Under the pieces are notes generated by a model. It saw only the letters and a program-made list of their open reading frames with translations. It did not search any database and was not told the origin of the DNA. Shown here in pieces: positions 13,367 to 26,499 of a DNA stretch of 64,000 nt (its first letter is position 1; each line of letters opens with the position of its first letter). The stretch lies in the NCBI RefSeq assembly GCF_000020485.1, contig NC_011899.1, forward strand, positions 345,501 to 409,500, read 5' to 3'. This stretch comes from Halothermothrix orenii H 168 (GTDB lineage Bacteria > Bacillota > Halanaerobiia > Halanaerobiales > Halothermotrichaceae). The position numbers were made by a program, and so were the translations under genes.

Positions 13367-13442
13367 GCCGGTGTAGCTCAACTGGTAGAGCAGCTGAATC
13401 GTAATCAGCAGGTTGCGGGTTCAAGTCCTGTCACCGGCTCCA
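13367..13442 (+). tRNA. tRNA-Thr (anticodon CGT); integration target
   Basis: Acceptor GCCGGTG pairs with CACCGGC, discriminator T and encoded CCA follow. Anticodon stem GCTGA/TCAGC encloses ATCGTAA, anticodon CGT. The 3' 46 bases are repeated at 26454-26499, so this gene was the attachment site of the element that follows, and it was kept whole by integration. Confidence 0.96.
13397..13442 (+). repeat. attL core: tRNA-Thr 3' end, direct repeat copy 1
   Basis: Bases 13397-13442 match 26454-26499 at 45 of 46 positions (A at 13410 versus G at 26467). The repeat runs from the anticodon loop to the CCA end, the usual crossover zone for tyrosine integrases that use tRNA genes. Confidence 0.93.
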
Positions 13443-13491
13443 TTGATATGACTGGGATTATAGCAGTTTTTAAAAAGCATAAAAAACGCTT

Positions 13492-13513
13492 ACTACATCT
13501 ATTTTACATCTAT
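13492..13513 (+). repeat. Left arm-type integrase sites (two direct copies)
   Basis: ACTACATCTAT at 13492-13502 and TTACATCTAT at 13504-13513, about one helical turn apart. The same word occurs twice at the right end of the element (26305-26327) in the same orientation. This is the layout expected for arm sites bound by the N-terminal domain of the integrase. Confidence 0.6.
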
Positions 13514-13521
13514 TAAAAAAA

Positions 13522-13547
13522 CCCGGGAAAACCCGGGATATTTTTTT
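13522..13547. terminator. Terminator just inside the left end of the element
   Basis: CCCGGG, loop AAAA, CCCGGG, then ATATTTTTTT on the plus strand and a seven-T run on the minus strand as well. It can end the tRNA-Thr transcript and insulate the element from it, and stop minus-strand transcription from 14057. The rest of the 13548-14056 gap is AT-rich without a supportable gene, apart from the repeats listed separately. Confidence 0.8.
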
Positions 13548-13668
13548 ATTTATTTTTCCCTGGTTGGAGAAGATCCGGCCAAGGATTTTTTTATTTTAGG
13601 AGCTATATATTAATATTTGCTAAAAACCATATTAACCATATAAAACATATTTATTATTTAATTACTAG

Positions 13669-13790
13669 TCGATTTATTCGATAAATTCGATTAAATATTC
13701 TTTAGCCCTAACTGTATAGATTTTACCAGGTATTTTTTTACATAAATAAACATTAATTTATTTTTACAAGTATAGTCGATTTATTCGATT
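13669..13790. repeat. TCGATTTATTCGAT repeat cluster, left part of the element
   Basis: A 23-bp copy at 13669-13691 and a 15-bp copy TCGATTTATTCGATT at 13776-13790; both are preceded by AG. An inverted copy (22 of 23 identical) lies at 23672-23694, and further partial copies at 17900-17963. They are confined to the element. They could be iterons, operators or partition-type sites. Confidence 0.7.
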
Positions 13791-14056
13791 TAATAGATTT
13801 AATAGTAACTGCAATACTGACTAAAATAATATATTATATATGGGTATTATATCTTTTGGAAGGGATATGGCCCTTACCAGGGATTTTTATTTTTACTTAT
13901 ATGGACTATTTATACTATAAATACTCTAAAATAATTATTTTTTTTAAATTCCAACTACCCACAAATTGAGGGTAGTAGAAGGAAACCTGGTTATATCTAA
14001 AGATAGAATTGTATTTACTGAAGATGACAATTAACGGGGGATTTTAGTATATTTTT

Positions 14057-14926
14057 TTATTTAGTATTCTTATTTTTATGATACCAGGCATTTTTACGAC
14101 AACGAGGACTGCAGTATTTCCCTTTACTATCTTTAGCCCAGAAAATATTTTTACAATAATTACATTCTTTAAGATGTTGAAATTGTGAATTTCCATTTTC
14201 ATCTGTAGATATATCATCAAGAGTCATTAAATTATAAAGTTGAAAAAGTGCAGCATTTAGCTGGTTGTTATGAGTATAAATTTGTAACTTAAAAGTTTTA
14301 TCATCTTTATCAAAAGCTGGTTTAATTTTAAAATTGTTATCAAAACTATTATCAATGTAATATGTTAATGTTTCTTCAATATTTTTCCCAGGTATTGAGT
14401 AATTGGCTTTAAATTTATTAATTATTTTTTTATCTTTAGTCTTAATAGCAAACCATAATTTATAAAAACTGTAAAGACCAGCAATTTTAGAACGAAAATC
14501 ATTGATATTAACACCAAAAGTAAGCATATTATTTATTTTTTTTCTAGTATGATTTGTTTTTGCAAAGTCTATTTTTCCTATATAAGGCAAACCATATTTA
14601 TTTATCCATTCTTTTATATTTTTTAAAGGAATGGCTTTTTTTATTTTGTCCGGGTCCCATTCATTTTTATTTTTATCTGGTAAAGATTTTTTTACTAAAT
14701 TAATCAAAGATAATAATAGTTTAAAATTATTCATTGGATTTTTACCCTCAAAAGCATTTATTAGATCTTCATCTTTTAACTGCATTCCTTTACCTATAAT
14801 GTATTCCTTATTTTTAATTTTCTTCACCTTATAATTCTTAAACTTCACAGGGAAAACAGAAATTTCCAGAGAATTACCTAATTTTTTAATGTTTAAATCA
14901 TTAATGTTAACAGGTGTATTTGTCAT
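14057..14926 (-). CDS. Unknown protein with C-terminal zinc finger (CGNR-like)
   Basis: Protein of 289 residues, very rich in Lys, Asn and Ile. The only clear motif is at the C-terminus: ECNYCKNIFWAK then KYCSPRCRKNAWYHKNK, a Cys4 knuckle with a basic tail resembling the CGNR/DUF6076-type zinc finger that probably contacts nucleic acid. The first 245 residues are helical and unrecognised. It is transcribed away from the rest of the element, at its left end, next to the divergent XRE gene. In satellites this position often holds cargo such as phage-interference genes; that is inference from place only. ATG follows AAAAGGAGATGGTTTT. Confidence 0.7.
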   Translation of the reverse strand: MTNTPVNINDLNIKKLGNSLEISVFPVKFKNYKVKKIKNKEYIIGKGMQLKDEDLINAFEGKNPMNNFKLLLSLINLVKKSLPDKNKNEWDPDKIKKAIPLKNIKEWINKYGLPYIGKIDFAKTNHTRKKINNMLTFGVNINDFRSKIAGLYSFYKLWFAIKTKDKKIINKFKANYSIPGKNIEETLTYYIDNSFDNNFKIKPAFDKDDKTFKLQIYTHNNQLNAALFQLYNLMTLDDISTDENGNSQFQHLKECNYCKNIFWAKDSKGKYCSPRCRKNAWYHKNKNTK

Positions 14927-14985
14927 AAAACCATCTCCTTTTAAAAAAATATATCTGACTGACGGATATTTAGACGCAATTTATA

Positions 14986-15014
14986 TTGTATAAGTCTAGT
15001 ATAGCAGATATAAT
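14986..15014 (+). promoter_or_regulatory. Promoter of the XRE/primase operon
   Basis: TTGTAT (14986-14991), 17-base spacer, TATAAT (15009-15014), 45 bases before the XRE start. TAGAC at 14971 and GTCTA at 14995 form an imperfect inverted repeat over the -35 region, a possible operator in this divergent gap. Confidence 0.6.
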
Positions 15015-15058
15015 TTAATTAGTCAAACGACATGAGAGCAAAAAGGGAGGTGTGTCCT

Positions 15059-15256
15059 TTGAACAGAGTTAAAGAAATTAGAAACAAAAAGGATTTAACT
15101 TTATTAGACTTAGCAAAAAAGACGGATATTGCTACAAGTGATATTTCCCAGATCGAGAATGGAAAGAAATTTCCCTATCCTGGGTGGAGGAAAAGATTAA
15201 GCGAAGCCCTGGAAGTACCAGAAAAAGAACTATTCCCGGAAATTGACAAGGAGTGA
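15059..15256 (+). CDS. XRE-family HTH regulator
   Basis: Protein of 65 residues, a bare Cro/C1-type helix-turn-helix: NRVKEIRNKKDLTLLDLAKKTDIATSDISQIENGK, then PYPGWRKRLSEALEVPEKELFP. By family it binds an operator as a dimer and controls the neighbouring promoters. TTG at 15059 is eight bases after GGGAGG (15045-15050); the in-frame ATG at 15032 lies upstream of that site and is rejected. First gene of the rightward operon, divergent from the zinc-finger gene. Confidence 0.85.
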   Translation: MNRVKEIRNKKDLTLLDLAKKTDIATSDISQIENGKKFPYPGWRKRLSEALEVPEKELFPEIDKE

Positions 15257-15262
15257 TTTTTA

Positions 15263-15619
15263 ATGAAAAAAGAAAAGGCAAGGCAATGGCAAAATGAGCC
15301 TCTTCTCTTAGACGCAAAAGATCTCCAGCGAATATTAAGGATTAACAAAAACCATATATACCGGCTATTTAAGCAGGCCTCATTCCCTTCAATACAAATA
15401 GGGAAAAGATATGTAATAGAGAAAAATAACTTCAGGGAATGGCTAAACCAGCAAAGCCGGAAAAATGAATTTATCAGCAGCTATAAAACATTAACTCCAG
15501 ATGAGCAAAAACTTTATGAGAAAGCATTCTGGGAAGCGGTTAAATTCTTGAAGGATCGGGAGGCAGAACAACATGACAGAAGAGAAAAAGTTGCAAAACT
15601 TTTTAGCGAAACTGGATAA
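15263..15619 (+). CDS. Excisionase-type HTH (MerR-like winged helix) DNA-binding protein
   Basis: Protein of 118 residues. Residues 15-62 match the HTH_17/excisionase domain: LLLDAKDLQRILRINKNHIYRLFKQASFPSIQIGKRYVI followed by FREWLNQQ. Members act as recombination directionality factors or as regulators. A helical tail of 50 residues follows. ATG 6 bases after the XRE stop; its last 47 bases overlap the primase gene in another frame, so expression is probably coupled. Whether it serves the integrase at the far end is not shown. Confidence 0.8.
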   Translation: MKKEKARQWQNEPLLLDAKDLQRILRINKNHIYRLFKQASFPSIQIGKRYVIEKNNFREWLNQQSRKNEFISSYKTLTPDEQKLYEKAFWEAVKFLKDREAEQHDRREKVAKLFSETG

Positions 15620-18020
15620 AGTAAAAAAGAAAGGACCCGATCAATGGCAGGCCAGGTGTCCAGCCCATGAAGATAAGGTGGAAAGTCTGTCAGTCTCCAG
15701 GGGAGATAATAAGATAAATTTTCATTGTCATGCAGGTTGTTCAGGAAAAGATATTTTGAGAGCAATGGGTTTAAACTGGAGCGACATTTATTTTGATGAT
15801 GAACCGGGCAAGAAGAAAAAATCAAAGGTTGTTAAGGAATACATTTACAGAGATGAGAATGGCCGGCCTCTTCATAAAACTTTAAGAACTGCAAATAAAG
15901 ACTTCCTTCAGAAAAGATACGAAAACGGCAAGTGGAAGTGGGGATTAAAAGGAGTCAGAACTGTATTATATAAGCTAGAAGAGGTTAAAGAGGCGATTAA
16001 TAATAATGATGTAGTTTACCTTGTTGAAGGCGAAAAAGACGCAGATAACTTGCATAAAATTGGATTAACCGGGACTTGTAATCCTTTAGGGGCAGGTAAA
16101 TGGAAACCGGGATATACCGAAACACTCAAAGGGGCCCGGGTTGTTATTCTTCCAGATAACGATAAGCCAGGTAAGAAACACGCAAGGAACATCGCAAAAG
16201 AACTGCACGGAAAGGCAAAATTAGTTAAAATCCTAGAGCTGCCTGGATTAGACAAAAAAGAAGATGTTTCAGATTGGTTAGATAAAGGTGGAACGAAGGA
16301 AAAGTTACTGCAATTAGTGAAAGATTGCCCGGAATGGAAGCCAGGTATTAATAATTGGCCCGATCCTCTTCCATTTAATAATTTTGATGTAAAGCCTATT
16401 CCAGTAAATATATTACCTAACTGGTTAAGCGATTTTGCAATAAATTTAGCTGAATTTACTCAAACTCCCATTGATATGAGTATAATGTTAATTATTTCAG
16501 CATTAGGAACAGCCTTAGCTAATAAAGGAGTAGTCCAGATTAGAAAAGGATATACAGAGCCGTTAAATATCTGGACATGCACGGTGCTCCCGGCAGGGAA
16601 TAGAAAAAGCCCTGTATTTAAGAAAATAATGAAACCTATTTTGGATTATGAGGAAAGAAAACGGGAAGAGATAGAGCCGGAACGCAGGCACGCATTAAAA
16701 GAAAAGTCAATACTGGAAGACCAGTTAAAACAAAAAGAAAAAATAGCTGGTAATGCTAAAGACCAGGCTAAAAGAAAACAGATAATGCAAGAAATCTTTA
16801 ATCTTGATGATGAAATACAGGAAATGGAGATCCCGACATTACCCAGGTTAGTTGCAAGTGATGTTACTACCGAAAAATTAGCAAAGTTGATGGAAGACAA
16901 TAATGGCCGGATTGCAATATTAAGTCCAGAAGGAGATATATTTAAGTTAATGGCCGGCAGGTATAGTAAAAACGGTGCAGCAAATTTTGATAATTATAAA
17001 AAGGCCTGGACAGGTGGAGAACCTATCAGAGATGACCGCATGGCCCGTAAAGGTACTTATGTTAAAAACCCTGCATTAACGCAAGGATTAACAGTCCAGC
17101 CTGTTATATTAGAAGATTTGAAGGAGAAAAAAGCCTTTAAGGGTGAAGGTATTTTGGGAAGGTTTTTATATGCTATCCCTGAAAGCCCGGTTGGTAGCAG
17201 AAAAGTAGGAAATGAAGTCCCTGAATTATCTGATATAGCCGTTATGAGATATCAAAAAGGATTATCAGCATTACTTCATACAAGGCCAGCGGGAGAAAAT
17301 AAAAACGGGGAATGGGAGCCGCATATTATTAAACTAAGCCCAGAGGCTTTAGAGGTTAGATATGAATTTGAAAGAGATATCGAAAAGGAATTAGGCCCAG
17401 AAGGGAAACTCCATAATATTGCTGATTGGGGAAGCAAACTTGTAGGAAATATAACTAGAGTGGCTGGATTGCTTCATATAGCCGGCCAGACAGACGCACA
17501 AAAAGGCCAGGCAACCAGGGATATATGGAATAAACCCATTGGCCCTGAAACTATGAAAAAGGCAGTTAAATTAGGATACTCCCTTATTGAGCATGCATTA
17601 AAAGTATATGATTTACTGGATACAGATCCAGAAATAGAATTAGCCCGATATGTATTAAAAAGAATAATGAGGGGTAAGGAAATGGAAAAGGCAGAGGAAT
17701 TACCTAAAGACAAAGATACATTAGATAAATCAATCCTTATGGAATTATGTAAAGGCAAAAAAGAAATAAAAAGGCCAGATGATTTAAAGGAACCATTAAA
17801 ATTATTAGCAGAACTTAATTATATTACAATAGTGGAAAGAGAAACAGAGGGAAGAGGCAGAAACCCTTCTCCATTAATAAAATTAAACCCTAAAGTACAT
17901 TCGATAAATTCGATAAAAAAAGATACTGAATATAATAAATCGAATAAATCGAATAAATCGAATATAACTCCAGAAATAAAAAAAGATGAAAATGGAGTTA
18001 TAATCGAAGGGATGATATAA
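15573..18020 (+). CDS. Primase/DUF3987 replication protein (CHC2 zinc finger, TOPRIM)
   Basis: Protein of 815 residues likely to start replication of the element. Residues about 27-60 hold the CHC2-type zinc finger (ARCPAHEDKVESLSVS..NFHCHAGCSG); a TOPRIM domain follows (VVYLVEGEKDADNL..VVILPDNDKPGKKHA, about 148-215); from about 280 a DUF3987-type domain replaces a standard helicase, with LPAGNRKSPVFKK in the place of Walker A. The C-terminus carries the repeated NKS triplet encoded by a 9-bp DNA repeat. ATG follows CGGGAGG. Similar proteins are found in phages and satellites of Firmicutes. Confidence 0.88.
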   Translation: MTEEKKLQNFLAKLDKVKKKGPDQWQARCPAHEDKVESLSVSRGDNKINFHCHAGCSGKDILRAMGLNWSDIYFDDEPGKKKKSKVVKEYIYRDENGRPLHKTLRTANKDFLQKRYENGKWKWGLKGVRTVLYKLEEVKEAINNNDVVYLVEGEKDADNLHKIGLTGTCNPLGAGKWKPGYTETLKGARVVILPDNDKPGKKHARNIAKELHGKAKLVKILELPGLDKKEDVSDWLDKGGTKEKLLQLVKDCPEWKPGINNWPDPLPFNNFDVKPIPVNILPNWLSDFAINLAEFTQTPIDMSIMLIISALGTALANKGVVQIRKGYTEPLNIWTCTVLPAGNRKSPVFKKIMKPILDYEERKREEIEPERRHALKEKSILEDQLKQKEKIAGNAKDQAKRKQIMQEIFNLDDEIQEMEIPTLPRLVASDVTTEKLAKLMEDNNGRIAILSPEGDIFKLMAGRYSKNGAANFDNYKKAWTGGEPIRDDRMARKGTYVKNPALTQGLTVQPVILEDLKEKKAFKGEGILGRFLYAIPESPVGSRKVGNEVPELSDIAVMRYQKGLSALLHTRPAGENKNGEWEPHIIKLSPEALEVRYEFERDIEKELGPEGKLHNIADWGSKLVGNITRVAGLLHIAGQTDAQKGQATRDIWNKPIGPETMKKAVKLGYSLIEHALKVYDLLDTDPEIELARYVLKRIMRGKEMEKAEELPKDKDTLDKSILMELCKGKKEIKRPDDLKEPLKLLAELNYITIVERETEGRGRNPSPLIKLNPKVHSINSIKKDTEYNKSNKSNKSNITPEIKKDENGVIIEGMI
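17900..17963. repeat. Repeat cluster inside the 3' end of the primase gene
   Basis: TTCGATAAATTCGAT at 17900-17914 is identical to 13677-13691. Then three tandem 9-bp units (AAATCGAAT) at about 17937-17963 repeat the same word in the opposite orientation. Iterons inside a replication gene are common in plasmids and satellites. Confidence 0.7.
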
Positions 18021-18021
18021 A

Positions 18022-18540
18022 ATGACTGGATATGAAATTATAAACGAATCAGAGAAGATTGGCTATAAATTAGAATTAAGGCCCGGTCCTAAGATTGGTT
18101 TATCATTAAAGCCGGGTTATAATCCCGATCCACAGGAAGCAGAAAGATTAATAAATAAATTGAAGGCAAACAAGGAAAATGTAATTGAATATTTACAATT
18201 AGATGATAAAGCAGCATTTAATAAATACATTGAAGAATTAAGGGAACAAAACCGATACGATCCCCGGCCAGATTTATCAGAGGACAGCGAATTATGGCAG
18301 ACGGTATTAAAGGAAGCAGAGAAACAGGATAAGCAGGTATATAGTAATTTACATGGTTGCAGGTGTGGAGGAGCAAGGTTAAAGACAGAGAAAGGCCAGC
18401 TGAAACTTATTCCAGCTATTGGCCCGGATCAGTTTTGGAAGAATAAAGAGGAATGGGACCAGGACCGGAAAGAGTTTTTATTACCTTATGCCTCAGACAT
18501 TAAAGAGATATTTATAAAAGTACAAAGGAAGTGTTGCTAA
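18022..18540 (+). CDS. Hypothetical element protein
   Basis: Protein of 172 residues, one base after the primase stop. The N-terminal 75 residues (ELRPGPKIGLSLKPG, then two charged helices ending KENVIEYLQL) resemble the small TubC-like or primase-associated N-terminal modules seen next to phage primases; the C-terminal part has CRCGG and CC motifs that could bind metal. I do not know its function. Gene order suggests a replication role. Confidence 0.65.
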   Translation: MTGYEIINESEKIGYKLELRPGPKIGLSLKPGYNPDPQEAERLINKLKANKENVIEYLQLDDKAAFNKYIEELREQNRYDPRPDLSEDSELWQTVLKEAEKQDKQVYSNLHGCRCGGARLKTEKGQLKLIPAIGPDQFWKNKEEWDQDRKEFLLPYASDIKEIFIKVQRKCC

Positions 18541-18678
18541 ATGGGTGCTAAAATATATCAATTTCCTTTAAATGAAAAAGTAAGATTGGCCCGGCAAATT
18601 GTTGCTGACTGTTTGAAATATAATCAGCGAATACCTAAATTTATACTGGAATTAGCAGGATATAGGGAAGTGGTTTAA
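18541..18678 (+). CDS. 45-residue hypothetical protein
   Basis: ATG at 18541 directly follows the previous stop and its TAA overlaps the ATG of the ERCC4 gene by one base, so it is translationally coupled on both sides. Basic, helical (KVRLARQIVADCLKYNQRIPKFILELAG). No family recognised. Tight packing is the main evidence that it is translated. Confidence 0.55.
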   Translation: MGAKIYQFPLNEKVRLARQIVADCLKYNQRIPKFILELAGYREVV

Positions 18679-19214
18679 TGCAGGCCTTACCCTATAGATA
18701 TACCAAAACAGAACTTAAAGAATTATTAAAGAGCCTTACAGTAATTATTGATACCAGGGAACAGAAAAACCAGCATATAACTGATTACCTGGACGATAAA
18801 GGGATCCCTTATAAAACCAAAAAATTAAATTTTGGTGATTATTCATTTTACCTTCCAGAGCAGCCGGAATTAGGCATACAGCGGCCGATGTACTTCAATA
18901 ATGAAATAGTGATTGAGCGTAAACGGTCCTTGAATGAACTAAGCAATAACTTTACCCATGACAGGGCCCAATTTGAAAATGAACTTATCCGGGCCAGTAA
19001 TAGTAAATTTATTTTATTAGTTGAGAATGTTAAAGGATACCAGAATATTATAAAACATAACTACCGAACAGATTATAAACCTAAATCTTATATAGCAACC
19101 CTCCATGCATATAGGGCTAGATATAACCTAGAGATAATATTTATAGACCCGGCCTATTCAGGGAACTTTATCTATTACACCTTTTATTATTGGCTTAGAG
19201 AATACTTAAAATAG
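18678..19214 (+). CDS. ERCC4-type nuclease
   Basis: Protein of 178 residues with the XPF/ERCC4 nuclease core: IDTREQ (about 24-29), FGDYSF, and the catalytic IERKRSLNEL near residue 80, followed by FILLVENVKGY. Nucleases of this fold cut branched or flap DNA; versions in Firmicutes phages sit in replication modules. No helicase or HhH domain is fused. It overlaps the preceding small gene by one base. The exact substrate is unknown. Confidence 0.85.
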   Translation: MQALPYRYTKTELKELLKSLTVIIDTREQKNQHITDYLDDKGIPYKTKKLNFGDYSFYLPEQPELGIQRPMYFNNEIVIERKRSLNELSNNFTHDRAQFENELIRASNSKFILLVENVKGYQNIIKHNYRTDYKPKSYIATLHAYRARYNLEIIFIDPAYSGNFIYYTFYYWLREYLK

Positions 19215-19309
19215 GAGTTGGCAATATGATAACGATAAGGGAAAGAGCAGGCCCAAATAATAAATAAACCATAAACTACTCAAAAATAAAATATTAAGGA
19301 GTTGAAACA

Positions 19310-20014
19310 ATGAGTAAAAATACCCTTTTTAAAGTCTTTAATGAGAGTGATAATAACGCTGCAGAGATTTATTTGCATGGCCCGATCAGAAACCCTCTTC
19401 CAGATGAAGACGAAGAAGATGTTATAACCTTGAAAGAAGTAAGGAATAAGTTAAATAAAATAACTGCCGACAAAATAATAGTACACCTAAACAGTACAGG
19501 CGGGGATTTATTTCAGTCAGTTGCTATTCATAACCTGTTTAAGGATCATAAGGCAGAAATAATAATGATAAATGATGGTATAGCAGCAAGTGGAGGAAGT
19601 ATTATCTTAATGGCCGGGGACAAGATTAAATTCTACCCAAACAGTATAATGATGATCCACGCTGCCCACACAATAACTTATGGTGATGCAAAATATCACA
19701 GAGAAGTTGCCAGGAAATTAGATAAGATAGATAAGTCTCTAAAGGAAAATTATTCTCAAAGATTTACTGGGGCTGAAAAAGAATTAGAAAAGCTTATCCA
19801 GGAAGAAACCTGGCTTACAGCTAAAGAGGCCAAAGAAAAAGGGTTTTGTGATGAAATAATAAGTGATAACACAGAAGAAAGCAGGGCAGAAAATAAGAGT
19901 AATAATCTATTTATGAATATGAAGACAAATAGCAATATTAAGGGTAAACTAATGAAGAAATATGGTAGTAGAAATAATAAATCATTACTCAATAAGCTAG
20001 GAGGCAATAAGTAA
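19310..20014 (+). CDS. ClpP-like protease (phage prohead-protease type)
   Basis: Protein of 234 residues with a ClpP fold: HLNSTGGDLFQSVAI, Ser94 in GIAASGGS, His117 in MMIHAAH, and a C-terminal LTAKEAKEKGFCDEI segment. This variant, with EETWLTA near the third catalytic position, is the one encoded in phage head modules, where it matures the prohead or portal. Here no portal or capsid gene adjoins it, which is unusual. A Lys-rich tail of about 40 residues is added. ATG follows AAGGAG. A housekeeping role as a stress protease cannot be excluded. Confidence 0.85.
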   Translation: MSKNTLFKVFNESDNNAAEIYLHGPIRNPLPDEDEEDVITLKEVRNKLNKITADKIIVHLNSTGGDLFQSVAIHNLFKDHKAEIIMINDGIAASGGSIILMAGDKIKFYPNSIMMIHAAHTITYGDAKYHREVARKLDKIDKSLKENYSQRFTGAEKELEKLIQEETWLTAKEAKEKGFCDEIISDNTEESRAENKSNNLFMNMKTNSNIKGKLMKKYGSRNNKSLLNKLGGNK

Positions 20015-20082
20015 TGTTTAACAAACTTAATAAAGTTATTAAGAAAAAAAGAGAAACCAGAAGGGGGTTAGTAACAAAATGA
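20014..20082 (+). CDS. Tiny basic peptide (22 residues), doubtful
   Basis: ATG at 20014 overlaps the ClpP-like stop and its TGA overlaps the next ATG by four bases; GGAGG lies nine bases upstream. The peptide is mostly Lys and Arg. It may only be a coupling leader for the coiled-coil gene. Confidence 0.35.
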   Translation: MFNKLNKVIKKKRETRRGLVTK

Positions 20083-20741
20083 CTGAACTTAAACTGCTGG
20101 AAAACCGAAAAGAAAAATTACAGTCAGAAGTTGATGGCTGGAAGGAATACGAGGATAAGGTTAAAGTATTATTGCCCTTTGAAGAAATTCAAAAGCTAGA
20201 AAAAGAAATTGAGTTGCTTAAATTAAAAGAACGCATAGTTAACAAAGAAATTGAAAAAGAGCGGGCTATAAGAGGGCAAAGTAAAGAACTAGATAGTATT
20301 TTTATCAGATTGCAAAAAGAAATAGAAGTAAAGAAAGAAAAGATTAGAGATACCCGGGAAATTGGTAAATCTATCAGAATAACTTATCATAACAAAAGTA
20401 TCGAAGAAGATCCACGCAAAGATATTAAAAAGGAACTTGCAAGACAAAGCAAATATCAAAAGATTGTGGAATTATTGGGACAGCATATTGAACTAATACA
20501 GAAGCTTAATGTTAATGTTAGTAATATTATTAATAACGTTACTGATTACAACAAAGGATATGTAATTGATCGCTTAGTTAGTCCTTCTAGGGATAAGAAA
20601 GAAAGATTAAGAGAACTCAAAAAATCTTATGAGCAGAAGATAGCCCGGGGGCGAGGTCTTAAGAATGAGCTGCAAAGGGTTGAAAAAGAGCTGGAAGAAA
20701 CCAGGGCAGAATTGATTGCAAGAAAAGAATTAGCAGTTTAA
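20079..20741 (+). CDS. Coiled-coil protein of unknown function
   Basis: Protein of 220 residues, almost wholly charged heptads: residues 1-90 and 168-218 are long Glu/Lys/Leu coiled coils, joined by a less charged middle (IVELLGQHIELIQKLNVNVSNIINNVTDYNKG). It lacks motifs. Position between the ClpP-like protease and the small terminase would suit a scaffold-like or packaging-interference protein, but this is inference. GGGGG ribosome site lies nine bases before ATG. Confidence 0.6.
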   Translation: MTELKLLENRKEKLQSEVDGWKEYEDKVKVLLPFEEIQKLEKEIELLKLKERIVNKEIEKERAIRGQSKELDSIFIRLQKEIEVKKEKIRDTREIGKSIRITYHNKSIEEDPRKDIKKELARQSKYQKIVELLGQHIELIQKLNVNVSNIINNVTDYNKGYVIDRLVSPSRDKKERLRELKKSYEQKIARGRGLKNELQRVEKELEETRAELIARKELAV

Positions 20742-20791
20742 AGGAAAAGAAATTATGATTACAACCTTCCTGATAGAACAGAGATAATACA

Positions 20792-20845
20792 CCCTCCCCG
20801 GTCAAAAAAATCACTTTTTCTATAGACTTTTGGGATCGGGGAGGG
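20792..20845 (+). promoter_or_regulatory. GC-rich hairpin before the small terminase gene; candidate packaging site
   Basis: CCCTCCCCG (20792-20800) pairs with CGGGGAGGG (20837-20845), extended by three more pairs, around a 30-base loop. No T-run follows, so it is a poor terminator. GC-rich blocks just before terS are where many Firmicutes cos phages have their cohesive-end site. The word GGACACGACAAAGC next to it (20846-20859) recurs with one change at 23421-23434. Confidence 0.45.
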
Positions 20846-20923
20846 GGACACGACAAAGCAAAAAAATTGGTAAAATGTTTTAAACAGTGTCTAATTGTAA
20901 CAATTAATAAAAGGAGGTAAAAT

Positions 20924-21241
20924 ATGACAGCTAATAAACGGGAACAAATTAAACGTGATTTACTGGATCAGCTAGATGAAGAAACAGCACAAAAGCGACA
21001 TTTCCGGGATTTAGTCGATGACTACCTGCAATTATGGGATATCAAGAATATGTTAATTAAGGACATCAAAGAACGAGGCGTTGTGGTTGAATACAATCAC
21101 GGCGGCGGCCAGTCTGGTTTTAAGAAAAACGATAGTATTAACGAGCTTAAGAAAGTCCATTACCAGATGATTAAGATATTAAAAACCCTCTCTATTGAAA
21201 GTAGCCCGAAGGAAAAAGAAGTTGAAATACCAGAAATGTAA
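20924..21241 (+). CDS. Phage terminase small subunit, P27 family
   Basis: Protein of 105 residues with the P27-family layout: FRDLVDDYLQLWDIKNMLIKDIKERG, then VEYNHGGGQSGFKKNDSINEL and a final helix HYQMIKILKTLSI. The GGGQSGxKKNDS box is the strongest family mark I can see. TerS recognises the packaging site and hands DNA to the large terminase. No TerL gene follows here or anywhere in the window, so it would need a partner from another phage. ATG follows AAAAGGAGG. It opens the second half of the element's operon. Confidence 0.85.
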   Translation: MTANKREQIKRDLLDQLDEETAQKRHFRDLVDDYLQLWDIKNMLIKDIKERGVVVEYNHGGGQSGFKKNDSINELKKVHYQMIKILKTLSIESSPKEKEVEIPEM

Positions 21242-21254
21242 GGGGGCTGAAAAA

Positions 21255-21476
21255 ATGAAAAGAAGGATAACAAAAGAAACGATTAAACCTGAAGAGGTGG
21301 GCAAATTTAAAAATGCTTTATATGAAGTTAAGACTATTACACCATTAGTTGAAAATCCCATAAAGAGAACTTATATATTAACCCAGGCAGAGTTAACACA
21401 AATGTTAAAGGAATATGAAACCTATGGGGAGTTTTTAATCAGCATTAAAGTTATAGGAGGTAATGGTATTGCCTGA
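21255..21476 (+). CDS. Hypothetical element protein
   Basis: About 73 residues, unrecognised: a basic start (KRRITKETIKPEEVGKF), then LYEVKTITPLVENPIKRTYILTQAELTQML. ATG at 21255 lies nine bases after AAGGGGG; a TTG at 21195 in frame is inside the terminase gene without a ribosome site. Its end overlaps the next gene by a few bases. Confidence 0.6.
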   Translation: MKRRITKETIKPEEVGKFKNALYEVKTITPLVENPIKRTYILTQAELTQMLKEYETYGEFLISIKVIGGNGIA

Positions 21477-21750
21477 AACAGCCGAAAACCTACCATACTG
21501 GAAAAGTGAAGAGCCGGAAGTATTGATAAATAAGGCCTTACAGATTAAATATTATGGAGAGGCTGGAGCCTTGCAGCTAACGATGAGAGGAAAAGACAAT
21601 CAAGGAAACAGTTATAATAAAAAAGGCGTTAATTTAAGGAAGCATATTCTGCAAAAACATCCCGAATTATTAAGAACCTTAGCTGAAATATTTACTGATT
21701 GGTATGATGAACTGCCAGAGGACAAGAAGGCAAAGGCCCTGGAAGGATAA
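21469..21750 (+). CDS. Hypothetical element protein
   Basis: About 93 residues, unrecognised. Begins PETAENLPYWKSEEPEVLINKALQ and ends in an acidic helix (IFTDWYDELPEDKKAKALEG). TTG at 21469 is eight bases after ATAGGAGG; an in-frame ATG at 21463 is only two bases from it and so less likely. Overlaps the preceding gene by eight bases. Confidence 0.6.
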   Translation: MPETAENLPYWKSEEPEVLINKALQIKYYGEAGALQLTMRGKDNQGNSYNKKGVNLRKHILQKHPELLRTLAEIFTDWYDELPEDKKAKALEG

Positions 21751-21758
21751 AAAATAGT

Positions 21759-21785
21759 GCAGGGTAGTTTAAACAGCTGCCCTGC
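21759..21785 (+). terminator. Weak hairpin between element genes
   Basis: GCAGGG (21759-21764) pairs with CCCTGC (21780-21785), then TTTAAAA. Inner bases AGCTG may extend the stem. The T-tract is short, so it may only attenuate. Confidence 0.4.
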
Positions 21786-21808
21786 TTTAAAAGCAGAAGG
21801 TGCTAATA

Positions 21809-22156
21809 ATGGTTGATGATTTTTTTAATTATGTTAAAGACGAATTACATTATTATTACAGACCGACAGAACTAGCAGCTATCAAAAAGAGAATTCATAT
21901 TCTTATTGATGAAGTATATTTCAACGACCCGGATAATGACATTATATTTGATTTTACAAAAAGCAAAGATGAACTTTACCAGCTAAACCGAGAAAAAGCA
22001 GAAGAATTAGCCCGATTATTTGACAGATCCCCGGCCAGATTAATTCTTAAAGGCAAGGACCGGGAAATTATTAGGGAAAACTTGAAGAGAGAATGTTTAC
22101 TTGATGGTATTGTTATTATTCAGAGCTTAAAAGAGATAATCAGGGGTGAAGATTAA
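21809..22156 (+). CDS. Hypothetical element protein
   Basis: 115 residues, helical and charged, not recognised. Motifs of note: YYYRPTELAAIKKRIHILIDEVYF near the start and a basic helix RIILKGKDREIIRENLKRE-like region near the end. ATG at 21809 follows AGAAGGTG by six bases; GTG at 21800 overlaps that site. Two bases separate its stop from the next ATG. Confidence 0.6.
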   Translation: MVDDFFNYVKDELHYYYRPTELAAIKKRIHILIDEVYFNDPDNDIIFDFTKSKDELYQLNREKAEELARLFDRSPARLILKGKDREIIRENLKRECLLDGIVIIQSLKEIIRGED

Positions 22157-22158
22157 AA

Positions 22159-22884
22159 ATGATAGATAAAAACATTAAAGATATTACTTTACAGGATATT
22201 GTTAATCTTAATATTTATGATGATGTTAATTTTGATGAATATATAAATGTAATCAGGAAAGAGAAGCCAGGGGCAAAAGATGAATTACTTAAATTGCTAG
22301 ACCGGGGTAACCAGGTTATAAAAAAATCTTTTATTGAAGAAGAACTCCAAAAACTAAAAAAGGAGCATAATCAAATCAATCCTGATTTTAATTTAGTAAC
22401 TACAGACTATTTTAAAGGGCAAATTGAAAGCTTGATGGTATTAGCAAGCCGAACTGTTGAACCCGGGCCAGAAGAAGTCCAGAGCAAGAAAAATGGCTGG
22501 TATTTTAGGGGATATATTACTTTAGGGGAGTTAAAAGAATTACCCAGCATATACCCTTATTTTAAAAAGGCTTATAGTGAATATAACAGAGATGAGTGGG
22601 AATTAGAGCTTAATGTAGTTGGAGGCATTATCCAGGGTTACCCGGCGGTAGATGAAGAGACAATTAATTCCTGGAGAGATGAAGGGGTGTTAATGGAGCT
22701 ATGGGGATTTGATAAAGGCAATAAAATGACGTCATTAACAGATATAATGGTTAATAGTTTATTGAAGTTAAAGAAACAGGCCCAGAAAATAAGAGAAAAA
22801 GGCAAGCCGGATAACTTGCATGAGGCCAGGATACTAAAGCTAGATAATGAAGGAAAGAAATTATTTAGTCATATATTTTATTAA
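22159..22884 (+). CDS. Hypothetical element protein
   Basis: Protein of 241 residues, not recognised. The first 130 residues are helical; a compact part follows (NGWYFRGYITLGELKELPSIYPYF, then WELELNVVGGIIQGYPAVDEETINSW) that looks like a small globular domain, and the end is a basic helix. Packed between two element genes. No signal peptide or cysteines. In satellites, capsid-size or packaging-redirection proteins sit near terS, but no similarity is visible to me. Confidence 0.6.
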   Translation: MIDKNIKDITLQDIVNLNIYDDVNFDEYINVIRKEKPGAKDELLKLLDRGNQVIKKSFIEEELQKLKKEHNQINPDFNLVTTDYFKGQIESLMVLASRTVEPGPEEVQSKKNGWYFRGYITLGELKELPSIYPYFKKAYSEYNRDEWELELNVVGGIIQGYPAVDEETINSWRDEGVLMELWGFDKGNKMTSLTDIMVNSLLKLKKQAQKIREKGKPDNLHEARILKLDNEGKKLFSHIFY

Positions 22885-22906
22885 TACTGCCGGGGGTGTT
22901 TGACCC

Positions 22907-23344
22907 TTGAAGACAGATGTAACAACAGAGTTATTAAAATTATATTTTACCGGAGAGTTATCAAATATTATTAAAAGGTTGAAAGCAAAGAATAAAAGGC
23001 AATTATCCGACGATATTTACTGCACTCTTTATGGCATTGATTACAGTATAATTAAACCTGGTAAAGTAAATACTCATTCAGACCCGACAGGAAATAGGGC
23101 TGCTAAGATAGCTGACTTATATTATGAGAGACTAGTGGAAATTGAAAGATATCAGGAAATAATGAAGGAGGTTGAGGATTTTTTAAAAGAACTTAATAGA
23201 AGTGACAGGATTATAATACAATCATTAGTATTAGATCAGCCCTTAACTAATGTAGCAAAAGAAACGGGAATATATTATGAGAAGGCCAGAAGAAGAGCTC
23301 ATCAATTAATAAATATAGCAAGAAATAAATTAACCCCCCCGTGA
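22907..23344 (+). CDS. ArpU/RinA-like late transcription regulator
   Basis: Protein of 145 residues. The C-terminal 65 residues look like a sigma-70 region 4 HTH: LNRSDRIIIQSLVLDQPLTNVAKETGIYYEKARRRAHQLINIARNKL. Proteins with this end (ArpU, RinA, YqaS-like) activate late operons of Firmicutes phages. The N-terminal half is unrecognised. TTG at 22907 is nine bases after GGGGGTG. Last gene of the rightward operon, as such activators often are. Confidence 0.7.
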   Translation: MKTDVTTELLKLYFTGELSNIIKRLKAKNKRQLSDDIYCTLYGIDYSIIKPGKVNTHSDPTGNRAAKIADLYYERLVEIERYQEIMKEVEDFLKELNRSDRIIIQSLVLDQPLTNVAKETGIYYEKARRRAHQLINIARNKLTPP

Positions 23345-23714
23345 TTAGGTAATAGGTACTTTATAAAAGAGCCAGTTATGGGGTTATGTAGTAGTACCAG
23401 TATTTTTATTCACTTAGTAAGGACACGACGAAGCGTCGACCCCTTGTAAATGTAGTCCAGCAGTATTATATCCACCCGCCCGAAGAAATTAATTAAAAAA
23501 ATAAAGAGAACCCCTCACCAGCCCAGGTAAGGTATTAAATAAATTAACCTGGGGCAGGCAAGGGGCAAAGTATAAAGAAATCACTAAACGCAATTTTGCG
23601 TTATGACTTACATAACAAATCCAATTTTGGACTGGTTGTAATATAATTAATTTAGAAAGGCTATGTAATAAATCGAATTTATCGAATAAATCTATTCATA
23701 TTTAAAATAATAAT
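23345..23714. other. 370-base non-coding region rich in hairpins
   Basis: No gene seen. CGACG/CGTCG hairpin at 23427-23439 inside the GGACACGACGAAGC word. A two-stage stem CCCCT..CCAGGT/ACCTGG..AGGGG at 23511-23565. Two small palindromes AACGCAA-TT-TTGCGTT (23587-23602) and TCCAA-TT-TTGGA near 23621. Last, the 23-bp repeat at 23672-23694. The density of structure suggests a replication, packaging or regulatory region. Confidence 0.55.
23672..23694 (-). repeat. Inverted copy of the left-end 23-bp repeat
   Basis: Reverse complement of 13669-13691 with 22 of 23 identities. It lies about 20 bases beyond the 3' end of the second XRE-type gene and closes the 10-kb core of the element. Confidence 0.75.
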
Positions 23715-23924
23715 TTACTGCTTTTTAATCCATTCAATTTTATAACCTATAATATCAGCAATATCCTTAACTTCCTGATATTTTATTGTTCCCCTTCTTA
23801 ATTTATTACTTAAATTTTCTGGGGAATAACTAGAATTATATCTTTTTTCTAATTCTGCAGCAACATCTTTAATAGTCCAACCCTTTGATATTATTTTTGC
23901 TTTTATTTCATCTTTAATAGTCAT
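23715..23924 (-). CDS. Small XRE-like HTH regulator
   Basis: Protein of 69 residues resembling short phage-type HTH proteins: MTIKDEIKAKIISKGWTIKDVAAELEKRY, then SPENLSNKLRRGTIKYQEVKDIADIIGYKIEW, with the second helix pair as DNA reader. It is transcribed leftwards, divergent from the small genes leading to the integrase, and separated from them by a gap with two identical palindromes and a perfect promoter. Likely a repressor of that promoter. ATG follows GGGGGC. Confidence 0.75.
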   Translation of the reverse strand: MTIKDEIKAKIISKGWTIKDVAAELEKRYNSSYSPENLSNKLRRGTIKYQEVKDIADIIGYKIEWIKKQ

Positions 23925-23991
23925 AAATAAGCCCCCATATGTTATTATTGCACTCTATTTATATTATACTAAATATGCAGTAAATAATCAA

Positions 23992-24051
23992 ACTATATAG
24001 TTTATAAAATTACTATATAGTATTGACAAGATGATACAAAAGTATTATAAT
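23992..24051 (+). promoter_or_regulatory. Strong promoter with two ACTATATAGT operators
   Basis: TTGACA (24023-24028), 17-base spacer, TATAAT (24046-24051): a consensus promoter for the rightward genes ending in the integrase. The palindrome ACTATATAGT occurs at 23992-24001 and 24012-24021, exactly 20 bases apart and just upstream of the -35 box. Two same-face sites like these suit cooperative binding of the divergent XRE-like regulator. Confidence 0.75.
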
Positions 24052-24119
24052 ATAGTTAGTTAAATAACATTATAGTTATTTATATTACAATATAATTATT
24101 ATTTTAAGGAGGGAACAAA

Positions 24120-24299
24120 ATGATTATTAAAGTTAAACAGGAAGAGGTTAAGTCAGTCGACCCGGATTATAAGGGGCAACAGTTTTATCACGAAGGGGAA
24201 AAGATTAAGTTGCTTGATGGCAGAGAAGGCATTTTTAAAGGTGTTGAAAGGCGTAATTATCCAGATGATGATTTGATAATTGTTAAACTGGAGGATTAG
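24120..24299 (+). CDS. 59-residue hypothetical protein
   Basis: ATG at 24120 after AAGGAGGGAAC. The product MIIKVKQEEVKSVDPDYKG.. has alternating strands and a GEKIKLLDGREGIFKGVE turn, which looks like a small SH3-like barrel. Function unknown. First gene downstream of the consensus promoter at 24023. Confidence 0.6.
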   Translation: MIIKVKQEEVKSVDPDYKGQQFYHEGEKIKLLDGREGIFKGVERRNYPDDDLIIVKLED

Positions 24300-24331
24300 A
24301 GGCAAGCAGTTAAAAAAAGGGGGGGTTAAAG

Positions 24332-24502
24332 ATGGATGTAAAAGAGAGTACTAAAAAACAGATTGAACAATATTTATTTGATATTGCAAAAACAGCAATT
24401 ATGATGGAACGTACTGATAAGCCAGAAATAAGGGCTTTCCAGCGAGAAAGTATTGAATTTAGAGTAGATAAGATAATGGAAAGGCTAAAATTATTAACTT
24501 AG
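24332..24502 (+). CDS. 56-residue hypothetical protein
   Basis: ATG at 24332 preceded by AAGGGGGGGTTAAAG. A helical protein (KKQIEQYLFDIAKTAIMMERTDK, then FQRESIEFRVDKIMERLKLL). No family recognised. In line with the neighbouring small genes, same strand. Confidence 0.55.
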   Translation: MDVKESTKKQIEQYLFDIAKTAIMMERTDKPEIRAFQRESIEFRVDKIMERLKLLT

Positions 24503-24561
24503 CTGGTAGTGGACTAAACAAAGCCTATATAGCTTAAAAGTTATTCAAGGAGGAAAAAGAA

Positions 24562-24882
24562 ATGTTAAACAGCACAAAGCAGCATATTGTTGATGTTTTA
24601 GTTAATGATGAAGAATATCAGAGGGTAACAAGCCAGATTGAAGAAGTGTTGCCGCATAAATTAGCAGCAGATGGAGTCGATGATGAGAACATGAATTTAT
24701 TGATTAAACTGGAAAATCTAATAATGGAAGTTGCCTATTTGAAGGGATATGCAGATGGCTTAGAGGAAAGTACAATTAAGAAAGTGAAAGAGGAGCCAGG
24801 GAAATATTTAAGCATAAACGAGGTTTATAACCTGACAGATGAAATGGGCATTACTGGACAAATAGAAAAGCCAGCCCGATAA
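24562..24882 (+). CDS. Hypothetical element protein
   Basis: 106 residues, acidic and helical: NSTKQHIVDVLVNDEEYQ, then LIKLENLIMEVAYLKGYADGLEES. ATG follows AAGGAGG by seven bases. Similar short helical proteins are frequent in phage early regions; the function is unknown. A hairpin follows before the Com-like gene. Confidence 0.6.
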   Translation: MLNSTKQHIVDVLVNDEEYQRVTSQIEEVLPHKLAADGVDDENMNLLIKLENLIMEVAYLKGYADGLEESTIKKVKEEPGKYLSINEVYNLTDEMGITGQIEKPAR

Positions 24883-24920
24883 AGGACTGACTTCACACCA
24901 ATTGTATTATAACATAAATG

Positions 24921-24944
24921 GCCCGGGTGTTACAGCCCGGGTTT
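24921..24944 (+). terminator. CCCGGG-CCCGGG hairpin
   Basis: CCCGGG, loop TGTTACAG, CCCGGG, then TTTAGATTT. A short T-tract makes it a weak terminator or attenuator before the Com-like and integrase genes. Confidence 0.5.
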
Positions 24945-24997
24945 AGATTTAAAACTATTTTATTTAATAGTATTCTACCAAAAGGAGGTATTTAAAA

Positions 24998-25123
24998 GTG
25001 AAACAGTACAGGTGCAAGAATTGTAACCGCAGATTATTTGATGAAGAATTAATAAAAGGCAAAATCAAAATAAAGTGTCCGAGATGTGGGCAAATAAATA
25101 TATTAAAAAGAGGGACTGATTAA
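24998..25123 (+). CDS. Com-like zinc-finger protein (41 residues)
   Basis: GTG at 24998 after AAAGGAGG. The product has CKNCNRRLFDEE at the start and IKCPRCGQINI further on: two CxxC pairs spaced as in the Mu Com family, whose founder is an RNA-binding translational activator. Such genes are widespread in Firmicutes phages. Two bases separate its stop from the integrase start, so translation is probably coupled. Confidence 0.75.
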   Translation: MKQYRCKNCNRRLFDEELIKGKIKIKCPRCGQINILKRGTD

Positions 25124-25124
25124 T

Positions 25125-26300
25125 ATGGCCCGAGGAGCTGGGGAAGGAACTATTGTTAAACGTAAAGATGGCCTATGGCAGGGAGCCGTTACAATTGGGA
25201 CAGATCCGCAGACCGGGAAACAGAAGCGTAAATATTTTTATGGCAAGACTAAAAAAGAAGTTGCAAAGAAAATGACAGAATTAAAGATGAAACTGTTTAA
25301 CGGTACATATTCAGAACCTAGCGAAATGAAGTTAATAGATTGGCTTCACAGGTGGATTGAAGGCCGGAAGTCCACATTAGCATATAGCACATACAGAAAC
25401 TATAAAGTTATGATTAACAACCATTTGGCCGATGATATAGGGGAAACAAAACTAAAAGATTTGAAGGCCCGGCAGGTGCAGGAATTACTTAATGATAAAT
25501 TGGAGAAGGGTAAAGTTTATGGGGAAGGTGGTTTATCCCCCAGAACCGTTAAATATATCTATTCTACATTACACACAGCGCTTGAGCAGGCAGTCAAGGA
25601 GAATATGATACCACGTAACATTTGTAAAGCCGTTGAGGTCCCTAAAAAGCAGGAAGAAAAGAAGCTGCATACCTGGAATAAGAAACAGGTTAACATATTC
25701 CTGAAGGCAGCCAGAGACTACAAATATTTTATTCTTCATTACCTTGCATTAAATACCGGCATGAGAAGAGGGGAATTATTAGGCCTGCAATGGAAGGATA
25801 TTGACATGGAGAAAAAGCGAATTGAGGTAAAACGACAGTTGGCCCGGACAGATGAAGGACTGATTTTCAAAAAAGTAAAGACAAAATCAGGTAATAGGAC
25901 CATACCAATAACTGATAATGTAGTAAGGGAATTAAAACGACATCAAATAAAGCAGGGTGAAAAACGGTTAGCATTGGGAGAAGCATACAATAAAAAAGCA
26001 GATTTAGTTGCAAGTAATGGAATAGGTAACCCGATAGATCCCCGGAATTTAGTAAGAGATTTTAAGGATATAATAGAGGAAACTGGATTACCTGAAATAA
26101 GGTATCATGATTTAAGGCATACCTTTGCTACTCTATTCCTGGAAGCGAAAGGGCCAATTAAAACCCTGCAGCAGATATTAGGACACTCTTCCATTACAGT
26201 AACAATTGACACTTATTCACACGTAACAGAGGAAATGCTAATTGAAGCAGAACGGAAAATGGAAACTATGTTTAAGGTTATTGGTAATGATAAAGAGTAA
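25125..26300 (+). CDS. int: Tyrosine-type site-specific integrase
   Basis: Recombinase of 391 residues that would insert and excise this element at tRNA-Thr. The N-terminus GEGTIVKRKDGLWQGAVTIG is the AP2-like arm-binding domain of Tn916-type integrases; a SAM-like core-binding domain spans about 65-165; the catalytic domain shows Arg in NTGMRRGELLGLQW, HDLRHTFATLF with the HxxR pair, and LGHSSITVTIDTYSH with the final His and nucleophilic Tyr. All key residues are present, so it should be active. It ends about 150 bases from attR and is flanked there by arm-type repeats. Confidence 0.96.
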   Translation: MARGAGEGTIVKRKDGLWQGAVTIGTDPQTGKQKRKYFYGKTKKEVAKKMTELKMKLFNGTYSEPSEMKLIDWLHRWIEGRKSTLAYSTYRNYKVMINNHLADDIGETKLKDLKARQVQELLNDKLEKGKVYGEGGLSPRTVKYIYSTLHTALEQAVKENMIPRNICKAVEVPKKQEEKKLHTWNKKQVNIFLKAARDYKYFILHYLALNTGMRRGELLGLQWKDIDMEKKRIEVKRQLARTDEGLIFKKVKTKSGNRTIPITDNVVRELKRHQIKQGEKRLALGEAYNKKADLVASNGIGNPIDPRNLVRDFKDIIEETGLPEIRYHDLRHTFATLFLEAKGPIKTLQQILGHSSITVTIDTYSHVTEEMLIEAERKMETMFKVIGNDKE

Positions 26301-26304
26301 AATC

Positions 26305-26327
26305 ACTACATCTATCACTACATCTAT
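26305..26327 (+). repeat. Right arm-type integrase sites (two direct copies)
   Basis: ACTACATCTAT at 26305-26315 and 26317-26327, 12 bases apart, just after the integrase stop. They match the pair at 13492-13513. Confidence 0.65.
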
Positions 26328-26453
26328 TTGGGCTGAAAATAGGGTTATTAGCCTGAAAATGTTGGAAATAACTTACATTACTAATCCTTTATAATCCCCG
26401 ACATAACAGTAATCTTTGATTTTATATAAACTAGACTGGAAGGGAAAAGTCTT

Positions 26454-26499
26454 AATCGTAATCAGCGGGTTGCGGGTTCAAGTCCTGTCACCGGCTCCA
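26454..26499 (+). repeat. attR core: tRNA-Thr 3' end, direct repeat copy 2
   Basis: 45 of 46 bases match the 3' end of tRNA-Thr (13397-13442). No 5' half of a tRNA precedes it, so it is a junction and not a second gene. Confidence 0.93.

Follow-up and report, generated by a model that had tools for sequence, protein, structure and literature searches.

To our knowledge, those phage satellites for which head redirection has been described resize the heads of their helper phages either through scaffold-like proteins (CpmB, Sid, Rcm and a protein of PLE, the phage-inducible chromosomal island-like element) or through a homologue of the capsid protein (Ccm). The head-resizing protein of PLE is named TcaP, and the gene set of P4-like satellites includes sid, psu and delta. 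The present analysis concerns a stretch of 64,000 nucleotides of the Halothermothrix orenii H 168 genome (NC_011899.1, positions 345,501 to 409,500 of the forward strand; hereafter the window, whose numbering is used throughout), in which an island adjoining a tRNA-Thr gene is likely to be a phage satellite of the cos (cohesive-end site) type, with a ClpP-type protease and an all-helical partner protein that probably redirect the HK97-type head of a helper phage. The host belongs to the Halanaerobiales, an order of anaerobic and mostly halophilic bacteria.

As far as the accessible parts of the reports describe them, cos-type Staphylococcus aureus pathogenicity islands (SaPIs) such as SaPIbov5 and cos-type phage-inducible chromosomal islands (PICIs) such as EcCICFT073 resemble the island in being bounded by attachment (att) repeats, in having a replication gene of their own and a cos site of the helper type, and in lacking a structural gene set (PMC8569155, PMC5052747, PMC6092414). 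According to the same portions, SaPIbov5 is about 14 kb long and uses an HK97-type helper head (PMC8569155, PMC5052747, PMC6092414); it redirects heads via Ccm, a homologue of the capsid protein, and its authors identified no protease in it (PMC8569155). EcCICFT073 is described there as encoding no terminase small subunit (TerS) (PMC6092414). The island, for its part, has TerS beside cos and a ClpP with a helical partner, and no capsid homologue was recognized among its proteins. Capsid-forming PICIs likewise carry a head maturation protease, but, in the accessible part of their description, together with a major capsid protein, a portal and other head genes (PMC10690885), none of which was recognized in the island. 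A phage CLP_protease gene is also borne by an Escherichia coli PICI genotype reported in a paper on helper-embedded PICIs (PMC10111431); in the accessible part of that paper this gene is the insertion target of another satellite and no cos-TerS-helical block is described, which sets the island apart from it by description only. Phage-inducible chromosomal minimalist islands are defined, in the accessible part of the report, by integration in fis and a Fis regulator gene (PMC10803314), whereas the present island occupies tRNA-Thr and no Fis match was found among its proteins. Phages of the PSA type, namely Listeria phage PSA and Acetoanaerobium phage ANDSL2_ph1, have the TerS family, ClpP family and cos type of the island; unlike it, both are complete phages with the order TerS, terminase large subunit (TerL), portal, ClpP and capsid, which in ANDSL2_ph1 runs across the record ends. 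The open-licence literature yielded no satellite paper for the Halanaerobiales and none on a phage satellite with a Clp protease, which is weak evidence of absence; for a head maturation protease together with terS it gave a paper on Streptomyces satellites. The head-protease cassette, the host group and the suggested swapping pattern are novel, whereas the overall plan, that of PICI-like satellites, is ordinary.

Structure and gene content of the island

The boundaries of the island and the features central to its interpretation are as follows.

13367..13442, + strand: tRNA-Thr (cgt) gene, located with ARAGORN; its 3' end, 13394-13442, forms attL
19310..20014, + strand: ClpP-type phage head maturation protease (phrog_94, E 2e-61; NCBIfam Clp_rel_HeadMat above cut-off)
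20079..20741, + strand: all-helical coiled-coil protein adjoining ClpP, a candidate scaffold, of a family present in three islands
20784..20875, + strand: cos site, located with phage-only profiles; alignment with PSA predicts a cohesive end of 10 nt at 20837-20846
20924..21241, + strand: TerS (phrog_5110, E 4e-34; Pfam Terminase_4 above cut-off)
26451..26499, + strand: attR, a repeat of the tRNA-Thr 3' end, located by repeat search

The two att repeats agree at 47 of 49 positions, the final 32 nt being identical, and delimit a unit of 13,057 bp (13443-26499) that adjoins the tRNA-Thr gene, in a host genome (G000) consisting of one contig of 2,578,146 bp. A sequence-only reading of this stretch had proposed an island with clean att repeats, an apparently intact integrase, an excisionase-like gene, replication genes, a phage-type ClpP and uninterrupted genes, and all of this was borne out: the reading frame of the integrase (25125-26300) is uninterrupted and has a Phage_integrase match, the protein encoded at 15263 and the DUF3987 primase lie above their Pfam cut-offs, and no broken gene of the kind that marks a decayed prophage was seen among the open frames inspected in the island. 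The TerS was also correctly named, but its P27 assignment was not carried by TIGR01558, which scored 21.5 against a cut-off of 45.6. A proposed ArpU-like activator stands as a weak match (phrog_36, E 3e-4), with the sigma-70 and RinA models below cut-off. Right in substance, that gene list had missed an ERCC4-type nuclease and the cos site.

Twenty island proteins were scanned against Pfam and PHROGs at E values up to 1 (a 41-aa frame at 24998 lay outside the scan). They gave no match to TerL, portal, capsid or tail families, and lysis- or scaffold-named matches appeared only at E 0.05 to 0.3, in keeping with the claimed absence of structural and lysis genes. The capsid, portal and packaging set of capsid-forming PICIs was not recognized in these scans, and the P4 names sid, psu and delta did not occur among the matches, P4 proteins not having been compared directly. 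The NCBIfam scan covered 10 island proteins, and PADLOC returned no defence-gene match among 10. In gene content the island is PICI-like: it has att boundaries with an integrase and an excisionase/AlpA-type gene, a replication module of its own in the form of the primase, with candidate origin repeats, and a packaging signal and TerS but no recognized structural or lysis genes. Its status as a satellite, PICI-like in gene plan, is well supported as far as genes alone can tell.

A phage-type cos site upstream of terS

An element upstream of terS is shared by the window island, a second island (in genome G011) and the prophages of genome G053. A first cos profile was made from seven phage loci, chosen by a pattern modelled on the motif and with the islands excluded, and its targets were freed of the island repeats L001, L003, L011, L012, L014, L104, L105 and L100, and also of L002 and L004. 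Just upstream of terS, this profile matched both islands: that of the window at 20784-20862 with 39.0 bits (E 5.9e-10), and that of G011 with 33.2 bits (E 3.6e-8); the best of 50 shuffled windows (3.2 Mb) reached 10.4 bits. At E <= 1e-3 it also found 24 of 80 collection loci outside the profile, in every case next to the terS frame or at its start, and a miss in such loci says little because many contigs start at terS. Extended, but still built from these seven phage loci, the profile scored 44.4 bits in the window, 34.0 in a third island (G017), 28.8 in G011 and 23.6 at the end junction of Listeria phage PSA; among 300 shuffled G017 contigs the highest score was 9.7. In the PSA record, a 3' cohesive end of 10 bases is annotated at the left end, and by alignment with it the cohesive end of the island would be 20837-20846. 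A pattern for the right half of cos has a single zero-mismatch site in the host genome, inside the island. Allowing as many as two mismatches is uninformative, because two sites were then found against five for a reversed control pattern. The cos site is kept even in the G017 island, on whose contig terS was not found.

Related islands in the order

When the same gene block was sought in related genomes, as the sequence-only reading had advised, two more islands were found in other families of the order. The G011 island measures 15,490 bp between perfect 31-nt repeats (gene numbers such as g12 are those of the second feature list, below). It carries a divergent zinc-finger-like gene identified by reading, at L009:9699-10862, in the place equivalent to the 14057..14926 gene of the window, along with XRE and HTH_17 genes, a replication initiation protein and a DnaB-like helicase. 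It further has ERCC4, ClpP, two members of the helical family, HNH, cos and TerS, as well as g13, g12, an ArpU-like gene, a small regulator and an integrase. The G017 island lies on a 10.6-kb contig that ends before any integrase and carries an 898-aa primase, g5, ERCC4, ClpP, the helical protein, cos, g11, g14 and an ArpU-like gene. No TerL was found in the island stretches of G011 and G017. Common to all three islands are ERCC4 (63% identical to the window's copy in G011, 72% in G017), ClpP, the helical protein, cos and the ArpU-like gene; the replication genes differ. In a fourth family (G003), a 5-kb contig bears g12, g14, an ArpU-like gene and an integrase. This integrase (L164:264-1473) is split over two frames, through damage or an assembly error.

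Among 38 genomes of the order, ERCC4 occurs in four, g12 in three and a PSA-type TerL in two others. As baits, the primase drew no relatives from the genome_contigs collection, and the helical protein and g12 none from viral_contigs. A profile of the helical protein run over 398 genomes of the phylum matched G000, G011 and, marginally, a 789-aa frame of G044; G017, whose inclusion in that sample is uncertain, was not among the matches and was found via ERCC4. Between G011 and G017, nonsynonymous and synonymous divergence (dN and dS, NG86) came to 0.29 and 1.74 for ClpP, 0.22 and 1.23 for the helical protein, and 0.26 and 2.33 for ERCC4, or rough dN/dS ratios of 0.17, 0.18 and 0.11; most comparisons involving the window island were saturated.

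The protease and its helical partner

The ClpP proteins of the window, G011 and G017 islands form one clade, with support of 100/99 and in all 200 bootstrap trees (70 rows). The ClpP and TerS trees exclude matches that fell below set lengths or scores, and also 17 loci that repeat the islands, represent second stretches or are duplicates or near-duplicates. Of the 78 rows of the ClpP alignment, five are repeats of the island sequences and 65 are distinct phage rows; among the latter the catalytic Ser is kept in 65 and the His in 64, and the Asp position holds Asp in 34 and Thr in 28. The window ClpP retains Ser, His and Asp, and those of G011 and G017 retain Ser and His, with Thr at the Asp position. 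This Thr was rejected as a sign of decay, since it also stands in 28 of the 65 phage proteins.

In all three islands, the terS-less G017 included, ClpP and its partner adjoin cos. The partner was predicted to consist of five long helices. A relationship to the capsid delta domain was rejected, as hhalign against 64 phage capsid proteins gave a probability of 0.3%; the G017 copy matched no phage record (the window's own copy was not queried), and Foldseek found no PDB match at E <= 0.001, the best being 0.13. The label of scaffold follows from position and shape only, because no scaffold, capsid or structural match accompanies it. The single ClpP clade, the unpaired island TerS, the divergence figures and the kept catalytic residues fit an old and maintained ClpP-helical pair next to a cos-TerS cassette that evolves separately.

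It is conceivable, if rather unlikely, that the island is a working cos satellite in which ClpP and the helical protein do not act on the head, being for example passengers or an interference system that cleaves some protein of the host or of a phage. The lack of resemblance between the helical protein and any scaffold would agree with this, as would Thr at the catalytic Asp position in G011 and G017. However, the head-maturation model was matched above its cut-off, Ser and His are retained in the islands, the same Thr is common among phage ClpPs, and the pair adjoins cos even where TerS has been lost. A role of the pair in the helper head is preferred on these grounds.

Phage relatives and the origin of the island

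This TerS was followed through 86 loci, the best 80 of 91 from viral_contigs and six from genome_contigs. In 84 of them TerL comes directly after terS; 67 of these 84 also have portal, ClpP and capsid in that order, and the other 17 each have less than 3.6 kb left after terS. The two loci without TerL are L090, whose contig ends at terS, and L100, which is the G011 island. The island's gene order is therefore not an ordinary phage order. Satellites may be under-counted here, because viral_contigs consists of sequences already judged viral. Across the 398 phylum genomes, 12 have a TerS match: two are the islands, six have TerL adjoining, and in the other four the match is weak and falls within a frame of 270-647 aa. 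Both G053 prophages show the order TerS, TerL, portal, ClpP and capsid (read in pairs of stretches), and the one on contig C6 has head- and tail-type genes. The TerS proteins of the window and G011 islands do not pair in the tree, which has few columns and an unsettled bootstrap; a single origin for island TerS, tried as an explanation, is unsupported. Their weak placement near different phages suggests swapping.

A stripped prophage, that is, a PSA- or phi105-like phage whose TerL, portal, capsid and tail genes were deleted and which is now decaying, is an improbable alternative. The nearest phage relatives of the island TerS and ClpP are indeed found among complete phages, PSA-type ones included; ERCC4 also occurs in complete Bacillus phages such as phi105; and in viral contig L127 ERCC4 adjoins a primase match, with a weak TerS match, TerL and portal downstream. 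Yet if genes had simply been deleted, TerS would still precede ClpP, whereas in the island ClpP precedes TerS and the two are separated by a non-phage gene; the block is present in three families of the order, in which the primases differ; and no gene of the window's island appears broken, with att and cos both kept. The satellite interpretation, which the sequence-only reading had also favored over a stripped prophage, is supported by the cos site, the two further islands, the single ClpP clade and purifying-looking divergence. No full prophage with the island's gene order was found among the 86 TerS loci, and part of the backbone is present in L127.

Beyond the occurrence of ERCC4 in phi105 and in L127, several points weigh against the satellite reading. 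The cos scores of the islands are not wholly independent evidence, because the seven profile loci were picked with a motif-modelled pattern, and the G017 site is weak with the first profile (12.6 bits, best shuffle 11.3), becoming firm only when the extended profile is used. The model of the helical protein is of moderate quality (predicted local distance difference test, pLDDT, 72.6; predicted template modelling score, pTM, 0.47), and in PHROGs, hhalign and Foldseek the protein matched neither a phage scaffold nor a capsid protein. Family and defence scans of the island proteins recognized no known head-redirection or interference gene. Nor was a helper found: PSA-type TerL is present in two of the 38 order genomes (E 2e-46 and 4e-38), one with an internal stop, and neither was found to carry the island backbone. 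A helper within the same genome was rejected, as searches of G000 with TerL PF03354, portal PF04860 and the PSA-type TerL alignment gave no match (the genome-wide search did not extend to capsid, tail or lysis families); the latter alignment was also unmatched in G011 and G017. Finally, the island is known from its sequence, with excision, induction and packaging as inferred steps.

The backbone itself is of phage origin, since ERCC4 and a similar primase co-occur with TerL and portal in L127. ERCC4 brought in 42 viral contigs, 28 of which rematched the ERCC4 model at E <= 1e-3. L127 is 39.5 kb and L128 43.2 kb long; the latter has ERCC4 beside a primase match, plus a ClpP match. The two are possible phage kin of the island backbone. 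An 839-889-aa protein occupies the slot of the same backbone at L119:3958-6627, L120:4283-6808 and L122:2283-4802, within the context of replication genes, ERCC4, slot, ArpU-like and HTH_17-like genes. The L119 protein matches tail tape-measure families (phrog_1535, E 1e-23), those of L120 and L122 being assigned by reading only. In these three stretches, PSA-type TerL, portal, capsid and TerS were unmatched (other types were not sought); a satellite carrying just a tape-measure gene would be odd.

The viral contig L124 (L124:1-9915) carries the ERCC4 backbone within 9,915 bp and is probably a complete 9.8-kb circle, because its ends share a direct repeat of 123 bp. It gave no match to an integrase of the island's type, and such a relative would suit an integrative plasmid-like element with borrowed phage genes and no use of particles. 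For the island this is very improbable: cos, TerS and ClpP jointly make sense for packaging, and cos is retained where terS is missing.

Proposed life cycle and implications

As a satellite, the island would lie quiescent in tRNA-Thr under its own regulators. On growth of a helper with a PSA/HK97-type head, Int and the HTH_17 protein would excise it, and it would replicate with its own primase from the AATAAATCGA repeats, while the ArpU-like regulator would switch on its late block. Island TerS and cos may then recruit the TerL, and the HNH nuclease, of the helper to satellite DNA, and a cut at 20837-20846 would yield 13-kb units with 10-nt cohesive ends. ClpP and its helical partner would most likely enter or disturb the helper prohead as a substitute protease-scaffold pair that favors small heads or spoils large ones.

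Put forward more tentatively, the islands may constitute an undescribed family of Halanaerobiales satellites that capture helper heads with a substitute protease and an all-helical partner in place of a capsid homologue or one scaffold protein, the pair long kept and cos/TerS swapped with helpers, within a wider set that bears differing single phage parts, some of them tape-measure proteins, in the slot between ERCC4 and the ArpU-like gene. If so, a head protease and helical partner without a recognized capsid gene would represent another, convergent route of head redirection, and the satellite model would predict exact, checkable DNA ends. It would also extend cos-type satellites to the Halanaerobiales and provide a case of a packaging cassette and a head cassette evolving separately.

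Other genes and repeats of the island

13669..13785: two reverse-strand copies of the AATAAATCGA repeat near attL, candidate iterons
14057..14926, - strand: candidate repressor of 289 aa whose C-terminus is zinc-finger-like, encoded divergently from the XRE gene
15032..15256, + strand: XRE-family regulator (Pfam HTH_19 above cut-off)
15263..15619, + strand: HTH_17 excisionase/AlpA-like protein (Pfam HTH_17 above cut-off; phrog_66)
15573..18020, + strand: DUF3987 primase-helicase (Pfam E 2e-106, above cut-off; phrog_2373, phrog_6088)
17934..17961, + strand: three AATAAATCGA copies at 9-bp spacing within the 3' end of the primase gene, a candidate replication origin
18022..18540, + strand: g5, 172-aa backbone protein with homologues in the G017 and G029 elements
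18678..19214, + strand: ERCC4-type nuclease (Pfam ERCC4; phrog_3490, E 8e-59)
21195..21476, + strand: g11, 93 aa, also present in the G017 island
21463..21750, + strand: g12, 95 aa, common to G011 and G003
21800..22156, + strand: g13, 118 aa, also present in G011
22159..22884, + strand: g14, 241 aa, common to G003 and G017
22907..23344, + strand: weakly ArpU/RinA/sigma-like regulator, a candidate late activator, with homologues in G011, G003 and G017
23715..23924, - strand: small regulator of the Cro/C1 type; over 66 aa its identity to the G011 counterpart is 89%
24120..24882, + strand: three small proteins (59, 56 and 106 aa)
25125..26300, + strand: tyrosine integrase, open frame (Phage_integrase match)

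The AlpA model itself stays below cut-off for the HTH_17 protein, as do the CHC2/Toprim matches for the primase, and the 289-aa protein has a weak HNH-family match in the PHROG scan (E 3e-4). A sixth exact AATAAATCGA copy lies at 23667, all six copies in the window being inside the island. The DNA of the small regulator and its upstream region (23721-24098) is 79% identical to G011, against 64-70% for the other matches between the islands, a hint that the control switch has been exchanged. The 56-aa protein (24332) recurs in G003 and G029.

Two further elements touch this backbone. The stretch L123:271-11665 seemingly comprises two different tandem units, with two ArpU-like and two HTH genes that are similar but not identical. 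In G029, L170:9837-17987 is a small element with an integrase, ERCC4, g5 and a DUF3987-type primase, together with a possible TerS that has a CKLHGGA motif and a weak match to phrog_9231 (E 1e-3).

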